Source: Chlamydiota bacterium (lineage in GTDB: Bacteria; Chlamydiota; Chlamydiia; Chlamydiales; Rhabdochlamydiaceae). Taken from it: a stretch of 64,000 bases of DNA. The notes beneath the pieces were generated by a model that searched no databases, had not been told where the DNA came from, and saw only the letters and a program-made list of their open reading frames with translations. Below are positions 44,275-51,919 of the stretch, one piece after another. Positions within the stretch are counted from its first letter, which is position 1. Each line of letters opens with the position of its first letter. The translations under genes and the position numbers were made by a program. The stretch is from assembly GCA_030916885.1 (NCBI GenBank), contig JAUPVT010000024.1:1-64000 (forward strand). The letters run 5' to 3'.

Positions 44275-45377
44275 ATGAATTTTTTGAAACTAGTTCCAAA
44301 ACAACTTGTTTTACAAAATGACATGACTTATCAAGGGCATGCGCCAAAGTGGTTTAAAGAAACGGTTTTTGGCGACATTGTCTTTACAATAGGAATGACA
44401 GGATATGTTAAATCACTAACAGATCTTTCTTATGCAGGACAAATCTTAAACTTTACTTTTCCTTTGATCGGCAATTATGGTGTTGCTGATTCTTGCGTGT
44501 GGGAGTCTTTGAAAATTCACTTCAAAGGCGTTATTATTCATCACCTCTGTCCTTTTTACAGCCATTATCAAGCAAAAACCTCTCTAACTCAATGGTTACA
44601 CATGCAAAAAGTTCCCTTTCTTTCTGCAATAGATATCTGTGCTTTAACAAAGAGAATTCGAATAAAAGGGAGTGTACTTGGAGCGATTACGCAAGAGGGT
44701 AAAAAAACGGTAAGTTTTGCTAATTCTTATGCTACTTCTCTTGTCAAAGAGGTACTTTGTCCTATCTTAAAGAAATATGGGAAACGAAGGAAAACTATGA
44801 TTTTAGTTGATTGTGGAATAAAGCAAAGCTTCTTGCGAAGAAGACTTAACTTTCCTATTCAAATCAAACGAGTTCTTTTTGATTACGATTATTTAGACCA
44901 AGAATACGATAGAGTTCTTTTATCTAATGGACTGGGAGATCCTCTTGACTGTAGACAAACAGTGGACATTTTAAAAAAATCCTTCAATAAAAAAAACCGA
45001 TTTTTGGCATTTGCTTAGGAGCTCAAATCATGGGATTGGCAGCTCAAGCAAAAACCTATAAACTACCCTTTGGACACCGAGGACAAAATCAACCTTGTGA
45101 ATGCATAGAATCAGGACGTTTTTTTCTCATACCGAAAAACCATGGTTTTGCGGTTGAGGAAAACAGTTTATCTAAAAATTGGAAAGTCACATTTCGCAAT
45201 GTGAATGATGCCTCCGTTGAAGGAATTCGCCATAGAGAGCTTCCCTTTTTTTTCGTGCAATTTCATCCTAAAGTATCTCCTCACCCCATTGATATGATGG
45301 GGTTATTTTTGAAAAATTTTATAATATATTATAGAGAACGAAAGATTATAAACGTTTTCAAGGAAAGTTTGTATTGA
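44275..45377 (+). pseudogene. carA: carbamoyl-phosphate synthase small subunit, frameshifted (ORFs 44275-45018 and 45030-45377)
   Basis: LSNGLGDP in frame 1; KPIFGICLGAQIMGLAAQAKTYKLPFGHRGQNQPC…NHGFAVEENSL…EGIRHRELPFFFVQFHPK in the other frame; shift at A8 run 44989-44996. Confidence 0.88.
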
Positions 45378-46789
45378 TTTTAGGTTCTGGAGGTTTAAAG
45401 ATCAGTCAAGTCGGCGAGTTTAATTACTCTGGAACTCAAACTATTAAAGCGCCAAAGGAAGAAAAAATTCATAGGATTTTGATCAATCCTAATATTGAAA
45501 CATTACAAACAGCCCCTTACACAGCGAATGAAATTTACTTGCTTCTACTTGATGCAGAAGTAGAAAATCGTCATAAGTTCTCTAGTTTATTACATAAATT
45601 AAAAATTGATCACCTAACATGGCCCACTGTCATTTCACTTACTCAAGCAAAATGCTTTGCAAACCAAGTGGGTTATCCTGTTCTGATTAGGCCCTCTTAC
45701 GTGCTTTCAGGATCAGCGATAAACATTGTCTTTTCTGAAGAAGATCTAGCTCAATTTCTTATTCAAGCAGCAAAGATTTCTCCTGAGCATCCCGTTGTCT
45801 TATCCAAATTTATTGTAAAAGCTAAAGAACTGGAAGTTGATGGAGTGGCTAAAGAAGGAAGAATTATTATTGAAGCTGTTTCTGAGCATATTGAAAATGC
45901 GGGAATGCATTCAGGATATGCTACAATGGTTTTACCTCCTCAAAATTTAGATCTAGAAACCATTCGACGTACAAAACTTATCAGAAGGCAAATTGTCAAA
46001 GCACTTGAAATCACCTGTCCTTTTAATATTCAATTTGTCGTTAAAGGTAATTCTATTCAAGTTATTGAATATAATCTGAGAGGTTCTCGTTCTTTTTCTT
46101 TTGTCAGTAAAGTAACATGCCATAATTTTATTGAAATTGCAACTAGAGTGCTTTTAGACCAACCTATTTCAGATATCTTTAAAACCCTTGAGTTTGATTA
46201 TGTAGGCATTAAGAGTCCTCAATTTTCCTACCAACGCTTAAAAGAAACCAGTTCTGTTGCTCATGTTGAAATGGCTTCAATTGGAAAGGTAGCTTGCATA
46301 GACAGAGATTTACAAGAAGCTTTTTTCCTTTCTTGGATGACTAAACAAATAAGAATTAAAAGGAAAAAAATCTTATTTCGCATTGGAGGCGATAAAAAAA
46401 ATAAACTATTGAAATTGATTAAAGCGCTTGCAGACTGTAGGTGGAAAATTTTTGCTACCCAAGGAACTCATGACTTTCTCAAAAGTCATCAAGCAGCATC
46501 TCAATGCATCTATAAAAGAAGTCAAAAAAAGCAACCCGATCTATCTAGCTTCATAAAAAAGGGCTATTTTGATTTAATTATAAATATCCCTAAAGGCACA
46601 GGAGCTAATCCTATAACAGATGGGTTTCATATTAGACGTTTAAGTATTGATCATCACATCCCCTTGATTACTCACTTACAAAACGCACAAGTATTTTTAA
46701 GCTGTCTAGTAGATCTTAATTTGAAATCCTTACTTATCCTTCCATCGCAACGCTTTGCTACAATTTCTGAAAAAAGATCTAACAAATAG
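45374..46789 (+). pseudogene. carB: carbamoyl-phosphate synthase large subunit with large in-frame internal deletion
   Basis: CAD-like start MILGSGGLKISQVGEFNYSGTQTIKAPKEE…INPNIETLQT joins directly to the second ATP-grasp half (NRHKFSSLLHKLKI…YPVLIRPSYVLSGSAINIV…SEHIENAGMHSG); 471 aa versus roughly 1,050-1,100 expected. Confidence 0.88.
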
Positions 46790-46801
46790 AAGGATTATAA
46801 A

Positions 46802-47923
46802 GTGAAAAAAACAGCTAAGTTTTTAAAAAATATTCTACTTATAACTTTTGTAAAGGTTTTACGTTATTTTATCAAACAAAATGTTACACGAGATAGGTTT
46901 TTAGTGATTTCTACAACTGGACTAGGTGACACTTTATGGGGAACTCCTTCGATCCGCTCTCTTAGAGAACAGCACCCTAAAGGATATATTGCAGTTCTAA
47001 CAAGCCATATTGGAAAAGAATTGTTGGAAAACAATCCTTATATCAATGATCTTTTCTTATTGAAAAAACCTCTAATTACCTCTCTTATTTCTCTTTATTC
47101 AAAGTTAAAGAAAAAGAAGTTTTCCTGTATTTTATTCTTTCATTCCTCTCAAAGAATAGTTTTGCCTTTTGTATATTTATTAGGTGCTAAAAAAATTATT
47201 GGCACGGAAGGATCAAATAAAGGACTCGATTCTTTAATGACTCACCTTCTTCCAAAAAAACCACAACATGAAATCGTAAGACGCTTAGAAATTATTGCAG
47301 CAGTAACTAGGAAAAAACCAGCTCATCATCGAATAGAAATTGCTTTAAACCAACAAGACAAAAAAAATGCACTCCCTTTAATAGACCATTTGTTAGATCG
47401 CACACAGCCTTGCATTTTACTTCATCCAGGATCTAAAGATCTTTTTAAACGTTGGCCTTCTTCTCATTTTATTGCGTTAGGTAATCTATTAAGCACGCAA
47501 CATAAATACCACATATTTATTACAGGTAATCAATCGGAAAAAGAACTAGTTTTACAAATCGCCGCTAATATTCCCAATAGCACTTCCTTGATAGATCTGC
47601 CGTTAAAAACATTTGCTGCTCTTATTCAGAATATGGATTTAATGGTTTGTAATGATACAGGCCCAATGCATATGGCTTTTGCTATAAAAACACCCACTGT
47701 TGCCATTTTTTGTCCTACAAACCCTCATCTATGCGGTCCTTATGCTATAAAAGACTATACGGTAATTACAAAGAAAAAAACCTGTTCTCCCTGCTTACAA
47801 AAAAAATGCACAAATCCTTTTTGCATGTTGCAAATAGGAATACAAGAAGTCTATGAAGCTGTTTTACATCAACTCTGTAAATCAGAAAAATTTGCTTTAA
47901 AGTCTTTAAAGAAACTTTCATGA
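46802..47923 (+). CDS. glycosyltransferase family 9 (heptosyltransferase-like)
   Basis: STTGLGDTLWGTPSIRSLREQHP, LLHPGSKDLFKRWPSSHF, DLMVCNDTGPMHMAFAIKTPTVAIF. Confidence 0.88.
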   Translation: MKKTAKFLKNILLITFVKVLRYFIKQNVTRDRFLVISTTGLGDTLWGTPSIRSLREQHPKGYIAVLTSHIGKELLENNPYINDLFLLKKPLITSLISLYSKLKKKKFSCILFFHSSQRIVLPFVYLLGAKKIIGTEGSNKGLDSLMTHLLPKKPQHEIVRRLEIIAAVTRKKPAHHRIEIALNQQDKKNALPLIDHLLDRTQPCILLHPGSKDLFKRWPSSHFIALGNLLSTQHKYHIFITGNQSEKELVLQIAANIPNSTSLIDLPLKTFAALIQNMDLMVCNDTGPMHMAFAIKTPTVAIFCPTNPHLCGPYAIKDYTVITKKKTCSPCLQKKCTNPFCMLQIGIQEVYEAVLHQLCKSEKFALKSLKKLS

Positions 47924-49176
47924 ATCATACATTCAGAAATAGAAGCGTGATTTCGATTGAAAATTTTTCTACTCAAGAGATTCTCTATCTTTTAGAAAAA
48001 GCGCATATAATGAAAAATTCTCCTTTTCTACCCTCACTAAAAATTTCTATTCTCGCTACCTGCTTTTATGAGCCTTCCACTAGAACTCGTCTCTTGTTTG
48101 AAGCCTCTATGCTTAAATTAGGAGGTGGGGTAATTGGATTTTCCAATGGGAAAAATACCGCTGCACAAAAAGGGGAATCTCTTGAAGATACAATAAGAGT
48201 TAAAGAATCTATTCATCTAGCTCATAAAAGCACTCAAGGACCGGTCATCTATGCAGGTAATGGCACAGAAGAACATCCTACTCAAACCTTAACAGATCTA
48301 TTTGCCACGCAGGAAACACAAAAAAACCTTAAAAGATTGTCCGTTACCTTTTTATGGGATCTTAAATACGGGTGCACAGTGCACTTTCTCTGCATTGCAT
48401 GTGTTTTATTTGATATGCACCTATTTTTTTATTCTCCCAATGGTCTATTCCTTCCTCAAGAGATCCTTGCTCATTTAACAAGAAAAAAAATACAATTTTC
48501 CTTTCATCAAAGTTTAGACGAAATCATTCCCTATACAACGCATCTGCAAACACATAAATTGATAAGCACTGATCCCACCTTCTTTAATCTTTATCCCTTA
48601 AAATTAGAGCATTTAGCAAATGCACCTTCGCATTTAAAAATACTATATCCACTTCCAAAAGCCAAAGAAAAAGGCCTTTGTCTGTATTGCGAGGTAACTC
48701 ACCACCTATTTCTTTTGATAAAAGCTTATGATTCACTAAGAACTAAAGCACAAGTTAATTCTCATTTACCACAACAAGTTCATTCTGATGGATTATGGCG
48801 GACTATTAGAGAAAAAATGGTTGACACAATTGGATCTGATCATGCCCCTCACATCCTAGAAGGAAAATCCGCAAATTATCCTAGAAATTTATCGGGAGTG
48901 CCTGGTATAGAAATTACCCTTCCCTTACTTCTCGATGCCTGTAATCAGGGGAAAATCCAATTGTCCGATATAGAACAAGTCATGCGTAAAAAAATCTTAG
49001 AAATCTTCCGATTGCCTCTTTATCGAGGCATTGTTCTAGTTGATATGCAAAAAACACAAGTTATATACCCCTCTGTATTGCAGACGAAATACAGTTGGAG
49101 TCCCTATGCAGATCTTACTCTAAAAGGTTGGCCTATTATGACTGTTTTAGGAGATAATCTCTATGCCTGCCACTAA
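47920..49176 (+). pseudogene. in-frame chimera: aspartate carbamoyltransferase fused to C-terminal half of dihydroorotase
   Basis: YEPSTRTRLLFEASMLKLGG, EEHPTQTLTDLF, WDLKYGCTVH…ILYPLP then GLCLYCEVTHHLFLL…DTIGSDHAPHILEGK…GVPGIEITLPLLLDA. Confidence 0.88.
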
Positions 49177-50269
49177 ATTACCTATTTGGTATCCAGATCA
49201 TGCCCCTATTTACGATACGAAAAAAAGTTATCTAGAAAATGCAGAAGAAGGCCCTTTCTTTGATGGAGCAATTCCCAAAAGAAACCTTCCTTCTAGAGAA
49301 GAGATGCTTAATTTTTTGGGGTTCCCAGTAGCCTCTTGTATTGGTGTAGCAGCTGGGCCTTTATTAAACTCTAAATGGATTTCACTAGCAGCTAAACTAG
49401 GGTACGATATTCCTGTATATAAAACCATTCGAAGTAAAGAATATGCAGCTCATCCTATGCCAAATATTATTTATGTCGATACAAATGGCCCTATACATGT
49501 AAAGGATCCCAAATATAGTGTTAAACAAATTTCTTTTCCGCCTGAGCAAATAGAGGATCTAGCTATTACAAACTCTTTTGGCATGCCTTCTAGATCACCT
49601 GCTTTTTTACTAGAGGATATCCCTCGTGCAAACGCTTATCTACAAGAAGGACAGGTTATGGTTGTTTCCATATTAGGTTCCTTTCAAAAAGAGCGTTCTT
49701 TTATAGAAGATTTTGTAGCTGTTGCCACCTTAGCTAAAGCAGCAGGTTCTAAGATTATCGAAGCGAATTTCTCTTGCCCTAATGTAAAGGCAAAAGAAGG
49801 AGCTATCTACCTGTCTCCTTCTTCCGTTGGAGAAATCGGAAAGGCACTTGTTAAAGCTATTCACCCTATTCCTTTAATCATTAAAGTGGGTGTTTTTCCT
49901 TCTAAACAGCTATTACAAGAAGTGCTAATTATAGCTGCTCAAAATGGAATCCAAGCTATTTCTGGGATTAACTCAGTTAGTTCTAAAATAGTTGATTCTA
50001 TGGGGAGCTCTCCCTTAGGACCTGATAGACCAGTAAGTGGTATTTGCGGAGGGCCTATTCTCTCCACCGCAGTGCGATTTATTACAGAAGCTCATGAAAT
50101 CATCCAAAAAGAAAGGCTCGATCTTACTTTAATCGGAGTAGGAGGTATTTCTCTGCCAGAGCATTTTTCGGTTTTTTTTAAAGCTAAAGCTAACGCCGCA
50201 ATGACCGCAACAGGTATGATGTGGGATCCTTATTTAGCAGCAAAATACCATACAAAAGAGCAGAGATGA
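49163..50269 (+). CDS. pyrD: dihydroorotate dehydrogenase-like protein
   Basis: IEANFSCPNVKAKEG, PLIIKVGVFPS, LIGVGGIS, ATGMMWDPYLAAK. Confidence 0.82.
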   Translation: MPATKLPIWYPDHAPIYDTKKSYLENAEEGPFFDGAIPKRNLPSREEMLNFLGFPVASCIGVAAGPLLNSKWISLAAKLGYDIPVYKTIRSKEYAAHPMPNIIYVDTNGPIHVKDPKYSVKQISFPPEQIEDLAITNSFGMPSRSPAFLLEDIPRANAYLQEGQVMVVSILGSFQKERSFIEDFVAVATLAKAAGSKIIEANFSCPNVKAKEGAIYLSPSSVGEIGKALVKAIHPIPLIIKVGVFPSKQLLQEVLIIAAQNGIQAISGINSVSSKIVDSMGSSPLGPDRPVSGICGGPILSTAVRFITEAHEIIQKERLDLTLIGVGGISLPEHFSVFFKAKANAAMTATGMMWDPYLAAKYHTKEQR

Positions 50270-50299
50270 TCCAACTATAAACTAAAAAATGACTCTTGA

Positions 50300-50940
50300 T
50301 CTTTTCAACATAGGTTCGATGATGCTCTCTGGCAACTTGCATCTGATTTAGAATTTAGTTTGACTTGTGGAGCACCTTACACAGCTCTTCCTCTTGCTGC
50401 AGTTATCTCCTTAGAATATAATGTCCCCATGCTGATGTGCTGTAAGGAGATTTACGATCTGAGGTTTAGATGTTAAAAACACACATAGACATTCTCAAAG
50501 AGTTTTATCCAAATCCTACAAAAAAGCTTCAAGAGCTTAGTCATAAAGAGAATTTTATGATTTTAGAAGATCACAAGTTTGTCGATATTGGAAATAGAGT
50601 ACAATTACAATATCAGAGAGGTCCTTTTAAAATAGTAGAATGGGCTGATTTAATCAACGCACATAGCATTGTGGCTCCTGATATCATCGCAACTCTTAAA
50701 AATGCAGGTCTTGGCTTTAATCGAGCATTACTTTTACTAGCAGAAATGAGCTCTTCTGGAACCCTTGCTAAAAAGGTTGAATAATATGAAGATTTCGTGA
50801 TTGATTTCATTTGTTTAAAAAAAATTTCTAATCATCCAAAATGGATTTACTTTACTCCTAGTATTCAATTTGCTAACGATAAAGATAGTTTAGGACAAAC
50901 ATATCAAACCTCAGATTCAGCTATCAAAGCAGGATGGTCC
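50300..50940 (+). pseudogene. fragmented UMP-synthase-like gene (OPRT fragment + OMP decarboxylase fragments)
   Basis: FDDALWQLASDLEFSLTCGAPYTALPLAAVISLEYNVPMLMCCKE; MLKTHIDILKEF…LEDHKFVDIGNRVQLQYQRGPFKIVEWADLINAHSI…LLLAEMSSSGTLA; DSLGQTYQTSDSAIKAG. Confidence 0.85.
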
Positions 50941-50944
50941 TCTT

Positions 50945-51919
50945 ATGTCTTCAACCTATCTTCCTAAGGTCTTTATTATTATTGTTAATTGGAATGGAAA
51001 GCAAGATACTTTAATCTGCCTAAGTTCTCTACAGTCATTGGACTATTCTAACTATCACGTAATCATTGTTGATAATGGATCAAAAGATGATTCTATTTCT
51101 GCTATAAAACTTCAGTTTCCCAATCATTTACTATTAGAAAATCTAACTAACATAGGATTCACAGGTGGTAATAATATAGGCATCCAATACGCTTTAGATC
51201 ACAAAGCCGACTTTGTTTTACTACTCAATAATGATACCAAGGTCTCTTCTGATCTATTAAAGCGCTTCATGCTAGGATTCCAACAATTTCCTAAGGCAGG
51301 AGTTCTTGGGGCTAAAATTTGCCTGATGCAGAACGAGGAAAAATTAGATCACTTTGGAGGAACTTGGAATCAAAAAAAAGGAGTTTTTGATTTAATTGGA
51401 CTGCATGCATCAGATGAGAATTGGGACACAGCTTTCTGTATTGATTATGTTTGTGGAGCTGCTATGATGATCAAAAAAGAAGTTTTTGAAAAAATAGGCC
51501 TCTTGGAATCTCGCTTCTTTTTGATTTGGGAAGAATCCGATTTTTGTATGCGTGCCAAACGCAAAGGATTTCAAATTATTAGTTATCCCTCTGCAAAAAT
51601 TTGGCATAAAGTGTCCGCTTCTTTTAAAGGTAAAACACATAGCACCTATTTTTGGTGGCGCAATCGCCTTCTTTGGATCGAGCGCAACTGCTCTTTTAGG
51701 CACCTTTTAAGCATCTATATACGAGTGTTAATTCCTGAGATTTTCCATTTAATAAAAATTTACCTGCTAAAATCTATACAATATACTTGTTTCCAATCTT
51801 TTTATACTAAAGCTAAACTAGAGAGAAAAACACATAACCTTTTTACCTACAAAGCAGCTCTAAAAGGTATAAAAGATTATCTCTTGCGTCGCTTTGGACC
51901 CGGGCCTGATTGCTATTAA
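50945..51919 (+). CDS. glycosyltransferase family 2
   Basis: FIIIVNWNGKQDTLICLSSLQSLDYSNYHVIIVDNGSKDDS, NIGFTGGNNIGI, LLLNNDT. Confidence 0.93.
   Translation: MSSTYLPKVFIIIVNWNGKQDTLICLSSLQSLDYSNYHVIIVDNGSKDDSISAIKLQFPNHLLLENLTNIGFTGGNNIGIQYALDHKADFVLLLNNDTKVSSDLLKRFMLGFQQFPKAGVLGAKICLMQNEEKLDHFGGTWNQKKGVFDLIGLHASDENWDTAFCIDYVCGAAMMIKKEVFEKIGLLESRFFLIWEESDFCMRAKRKGFQIISYPSAKIWHKVSASFKGKTHSTYFWWRNRLLWIERNCSFRHLLSIYIRVLIPEIFHLIKIYLLKSIQYTCFQSFYTKAKLERKTHNLFTYKAALKGIKDYLLRRFGPGPDCY

Follow-up and report, generated by a model that had tools for sequence, protein, structure and literature searches.

In the DNA analysed here, namely, the whole 64,000-nucleotide stretch at positions 1 to 64,000 of contig JAUPVT010000024.1 from a member of the Rhabdochlamydiaceae (assembly GCA_030916885.1; hereafter, the window), in-frame stop codons are depleted from the broken pyrimidine genes that lie ahead of an intact pyrD gene and not from those that lie behind it. 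This depletion is a real signal, and the reading frames of these dead genes have probably been kept open by selection so that the GT9 and pyrD genes found downstream are expressed. The broader reading, in which dead genes within a tightly overlapping operon serve as translated spacers, with stops being purged without constraint on the protein, such that the pseudogenes of genome reduction decay by missense change and in-frame deletion while a needed gene lies downstream, is on balance favored.

At the center of this region is an open frame of 418 residues with an ATG start (positions 47920-49176, + strand), the presence of which was confirmed in the window sequence. In the operon that contains it, pyrD and the GT9 and GT2 genes alone are intact, while carA, carB, pyrB, pyrC, pyrE, and pyrF are broken, as follows:

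44275-45018, + strand: carA pseudogene, 5' part, ending shortly past a -1 deletion in an A-run (~44985-44996)
45030-45377, + strand: carA pseudogene, 3' part, reading again in the ancestral frame, with AGGAG ~9 nt ahead of its ATG and a +2 insertion near its end
45374-46789, + strand: carB pseudogene, native ATG lost, with a TTG overlapping the carA stop (TTGA)
46802-47923, + strand: GT9 (heptosyltransferase-like), intact and under purifying selection
47920-48657, + strand: chimera, pyrB-derived part, ancestral codons 1 to ~269, with 42 nt lost near 48202 and 15 nt lost near 48530
48658-48662, + strand: fusion junction, where ~781 nt of the pyrB 3' end and the pyrC 5' part are deleted
48660-49176, + strand: chimera, pyrC-derived part, from ~codon 233 to the stop, with a 3-nt deletion near 48698
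49163-50269, + strand: pyrD (dihydroorotate dehydrogenase-like), intact, overlapping the chimera by 14 nt
50221-50476, + strand: pyrE remnants, two scraps with frameshifts and a stop arising from CAA to TAA
50452-50937, + strand: pyrF remnant, carrying deletions and two in-frame stops (TAG and TAA), ~170 of 258 codons kept
50945-51919, + strand: GT2 glycosyltransferase, intact

The carB pseudogene has, moreover, undergone a net in-frame internal deletion of 1,761 nt, with a junction near position 45560, leaving 471 of 1,075 residues. Two glycosyltransferase genes (46802-47923 and 50945-51919) thus lie inside or adjoin the pyrimidine operon.

In three congeneric genomes (G001, G002, and G003), the operon reads carA-carB-GT9-pyrB-pyrC-pyrD-pyrE-pyrF-GT2, followed by the type III secretion gene sctJ, with nearly all of the operon genes overlapping and with pyrB (310 aa) and pyrC (405 aa) being separate and intact. 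The carB gene of G002 (L022, 1283-4507), otherwise intact, contains one in-frame TAA (FNI*FVV), corresponding either to an early sign of decay or to a sequencing error. The ATGA (-4) overlap between GT9 and the chimera and the 14-nt overlap with pyrD, which the original prediction had presented as features of the chimera, are indeed present, yet are identical in these three genomes and in a fourth congener (G005), and as such are ancestral. The notion of the overlaps being adaptations of the chimera was dropped, given that the same overlaps occur in congeners with intact genes. In outgroup operons (L026:6603-7064, with similar ORFs in L027, L028, and L029), pyrI, encoding the ATCase regulatory chain, lies between pyrB and pyrC, the Pfam match having been checked for L026 only; pyrI has been lost from the genus to which the window belongs.

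Profile searches and alignment with the intact congeneric genes bore out the proposal that the 418-residue ORF is an in-frame PyrB-PyrC chimera. ATCase is recognized in residues 8-249 (TIGR00670, E 2e-49), and the C-terminal portion of dihydroorotase in residues 250-412 (positions 245-416 of 440 of profile NF005751, E 1e-36), with both matches falling far under the curated cut-offs (168 vs. 237 in the case of ATCase). The pyrB portion, comprising codons 1 to ~269, stops at the KILHPLP motif and is joined in frame with pyrC from ~codon 233. Comparison with the congeners likewise upheld the predicted losses of the ATCase C-terminus and of the N-terminal half of dihydroorotase, with its HxH site and DPHAHFR metal-binding motif, together with retention of DHAPH and the altered ATCase motifs, which proved to be specific to this lineage: GDLKYGRTVHS reads WDLKYGCTVHF, TRLQ reads THLQ, and HPLP reads YPLP, with the active-site Arg residues of KYGR and TRLQ both having been replaced. 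In the pyrC part, the Pro codon of CEVTPHH has been lost.

Nucleotide alignment places the fusion deletion, of ~781 nt, between the HPLP region of pyrB and codon ~233 of pyrC. Intact pyrB and pyrC occupy different frames, and since the deleted length is 1 mod 3, the phase needed for joining, the two frames became one. The chimera also bears three smaller deletions that keep the frame (42, 15, and 3 nt), of which the first takes out the GSFADVIILRHPS segment, including the RHP motif, and the second falls directly ahead of TRLQ; the original account of the deletions, correct as to the fusion junction, had overlooked both. In all, 4 of 4 indels between GT9 and pyrD preserve the frame, as do 5 of 7 upstream of pyrD. 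The chimera is absent from all congeners, placing the fusion in a single lineage, and an initial scan of named genomes for the chimera gave no match. Neither full pyrB and pyrC genes nor further copies of pathway genes were found elsewhere in the 94%-complete, 1.37-Mb draft genome that includes the window (G000; 66 contigs). The chimera is a product of deletion inside an operon for de novo pyrimidine (UMP) synthesis that has fallen out of use in this Rhabdochlamydia-like symbiont.

Constraint at the amino acid level was considered using a codon model and a quartet of genomes (G000, G003, G001, and G002). For the chimera, dN/dS was 0.56 on the branch leading to the window, as compared to a background of 0.13, with the corresponding values for carB and carA on the same branch being 0.55 and 0.64, whereas flanking genes gave 0.21 on this branch and 0.14 elsewhere; pyrD is still constrained. 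Outgroup genomes, seven for pyrB and pyrC and six for carA and carB, were used to class the residues of these four genes. On the branch of the window, dN/dS rose from 0.013 to 0.50 at family-invariant residues, which thus change at roughly half the neutral rate, from 0.06 to 0.49 at intermediate residues, and from 0.33 to 0.69 at variable residues. A branch that is half normal and half neutral reproduces this pattern in all three residue classes, as if all protein constraint had been lost about midway along it.

Across the same four genes, no in-frame stop was seen in 1,257 aligned codons where 16.5 were expected by the model (P 4e-8), a test based on one lineage. A model-free count, which considered single-base changes only, derived the rate of each mutation type from the missense changes, and is independent of the two-phase model, gave an expectation of 9.2 stops, with none being seen (P 1e-4). 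Upstream of pyrD, therefore, stops are fewer than the missense changes predict, as in frames that are kept open. By contrast, the remnants of pyrE and pyrF, downstream of pyrD, contain three stops, where 2-2.8 were expected. The original prediction had considered the chimera alone, too narrow a view, as stops are likewise avoided in carA and carB, upstream of GT9, but not in pyrE and pyrF, downstream of pyrD; for the chimera by itself, the absence of stops, where 3.1-5.4 were expected, is only moderately significant (P 0.04-0.004). Given that changes to the active sites were fixed and stops were not, a stop appears to have been worse than such changes.

Preservation of the frame is, nonetheless, incomplete, with carA bearing two frameshifts (-1 and +2) and carB having lost its start, although translation could restart at a codon found, together with an SD-like site, within 12 nt of each of the carA and carB break points. 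The carA frameshift at ~44985-44996 falls within eight consecutive A residues, at which slippage during transcription could bring back the frame in part. Other probable pseudogenes of the same genome (L074, L083, and L088) have in-frame stops when compared with G001. These were rejected as a control, since they had been found through their stops and are thus biased, showing only that stops occur.

Plain neutral decay, whereby the deletion was in frame by chance and the absence of stops reflects luck or recency, is unlikely to explain these findings. It is true that the pathway has been lost repeatedly in the genus (by frameshifts in G005 and wholesale in a further congener, G004), that an in-frame fusion, taken singly, is expected by chance in one case of three, and that the chimera, taken alone, could have escaped stops with a P of 0.04 to 0.004. 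Still, 9-16 stops were expected upstream of pyrD and none was seen, while the remnants behind pyrD hold the expected number. Nor does recency help, as the age of the branch was estimated from missense changes, such that recency is already included.

That a new or residual function of the fused protein, and of the shortened CarB, preserves the ORF is very improbable. The frame is open over 418 residues and DHAPH is retained, yet invariant and variable residues alike change as if unconstrained, active-site Arg residues have been lost or replaced, the fusion occurs in no congener, and the predicted structure is of low confidence, with a mean pLDDT of 44 and a shallow alignment; this structure was set aside as evidence for the favored explanation. 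The carbamoyl phosphate- and aspartate-binding residues of a functional PyrB (STRT, RHP, HPTQ, KYGR, TRxQ, and HPLP) are not preserved as a set, and the N-terminal HxH metal site and whole barrel of a functional PyrC are lacking, the first ~232 residues being absent. Accordingly, unlike a fusion enzyme of the CAD or PyrB-PyrC type, with complete domains conserved in relatives, the chimera has both domains cut and belongs to one lineage, whereas separate intact orthologs in relatives and lost amino acid constraint are what is seen of a pseudogene formed by deletion. The chimera is thus not a new enzyme but a decay product, predicted from its missing active-site residues to be catalytically dead, with neither half being an enzyme. 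An assembly artefact or misjoined contig is the least credible explanation, since, even though the genome is a draft in 66 contigs, synteny carries on to both sides, the region from carA to pyrC bears, throughout its length, ~120 missense changes of single bases as well as four separate deletions, and pyrE and pyrF are independently broken.

Selection for continued translation is the simplest explanation of stops being avoided where a needed gene comes next downstream while the proteins drift. The carA, carB, pyrB, and pyrC frames, lying ahead of the needed GT9 and pyrD genes, would be selected for their translation rather than for the encoded product, the selected trait presumably being expression of the genes downstream. 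With a premature stop, part of the message would go untranslated, lowering expression of overlapping genes further along, either through lost translational coupling or through Rho-dependent polarity. While the predicted selection on the frame is thus upheld by the stop counts, coupling specific to pyrD, as opposed to GT9 or to polarity in general, is not. Indeed, pyrD has its own AGGAG site, which sits within the pyrC reading frame, and predicted folding of an SD-sequestering hairpin at pyrD was no better than that of shuffled sequences in four genomes. Strict coupling through such a hairpin was accordingly dropped, no RNA structure that would make pyrD depend on pyrC translation having been found. 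Also counting against the proposal, GT2 is intact despite lying behind the stop-bearing pyrE and pyrF remnants, although GT2 may have its own promoter. Promoter-like sites are as frequent in the region as in shuffled sequences, and hence are uninformative.

Two congeners bear on the same question. The original prediction had held that frame-disrupting mutations in sister strains would speak for plain decay, and such mutations exist in a sister genome, G005, in which pyrB and pyrC carry frameshifts and carB a stop, with GT9 and pyrD being intact. This counts against frame selection in that genome, where a broken frame before pyrD can apparently be tolerated, although decay in G005 is recent, with one stop seen where 2.6 were expected. 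In G004, where only fragments of the pathway remain and pyrD is absent from the stretch read, a carB remnant (L024:5770-6945) joins codons 348-652 to codons 1053-1074 in an open frame that overlaps GT9, and this independent loss was counted as support. Its start region resembles part of a transposase gene read out of frame, as recognized by eye, and the in-frame stop scored by script in this remnant was taken as the misaligned terminal stop, because the ORF is open to its end.

The G005 mutations in carB, pyrB, and pyrC differ from those of the window, with pyrD, pyrE, and pyrF surviving. Since the losses in G000, G005, and G004 involved different mutations, the de novo pyrimidine pathway has been lost on at least three independent occasions within the genus. 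Pyrimidine nucleotides are probably imported from the host via nucleotide transporters, in agreement with G000 encoding three full-length NTT transporters, as well as PyrG and PyrH; Rho is also encoded. GT9 is present in six of six congeneric genomes, irrespective of the state of the operon. In the window, pyrD is the sole intact and constrained pyrimidine enzyme gene of the operon, even though all other steps are gone, and may have another role.

A deficit of stops separates selection on a protein from selection on a frame and measures the latter in nature. Should the phenomenon prove general, in-frame dead genes of reduced genomes will be misread as functional, and stop counts will understate the number of pseudogenes inside operons. 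De novo pyrimidine synthesis has, moreover, been lost three separate times within one chlamydial genus. In the literature collection searched, avoidance of stops by pseudogenes within operons was not the subject of any paper.

A full pyrimidine operon was reported in Rhabdochlamydia helvetica (PMC6490308). The de novo UMP operon of that species, Waddlia, and Criblamydia includes the same genes (PMC6490308), and the intact congeneric operons considered here match that of R. helvetica, whereas in the window six of the genes are broken, leaving pyrD and the two glycosyltransferase genes. In Rhabdochlamydia oedothoracis, a chlamydial species whose genome is shrinking, cryptic pseudogenes were described that have open frames but are under relaxed selection (PMC9723776). 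The window shares with these open frames and relaxed selection, yet differs in that constraint has been fully lost, large deletions have occurred, and stops are depleted ahead of pyrD only, such that the open frame itself looks selected. In operon polarity and translational coupling, a downstream, overlapping gene depends on translation of the gene upstream, as is usually shown with mutants; here, such dependence is proposed as an evolutionary force acting on dead genes and is read from sequence. Finally, CAD-type fusions and PyrB-PyrC' of Pseudomonas bring ATCase and dihydroorotase together as complete, conserved domains, whereas the chimera of the window consists of two truncated halves in a single lineage.
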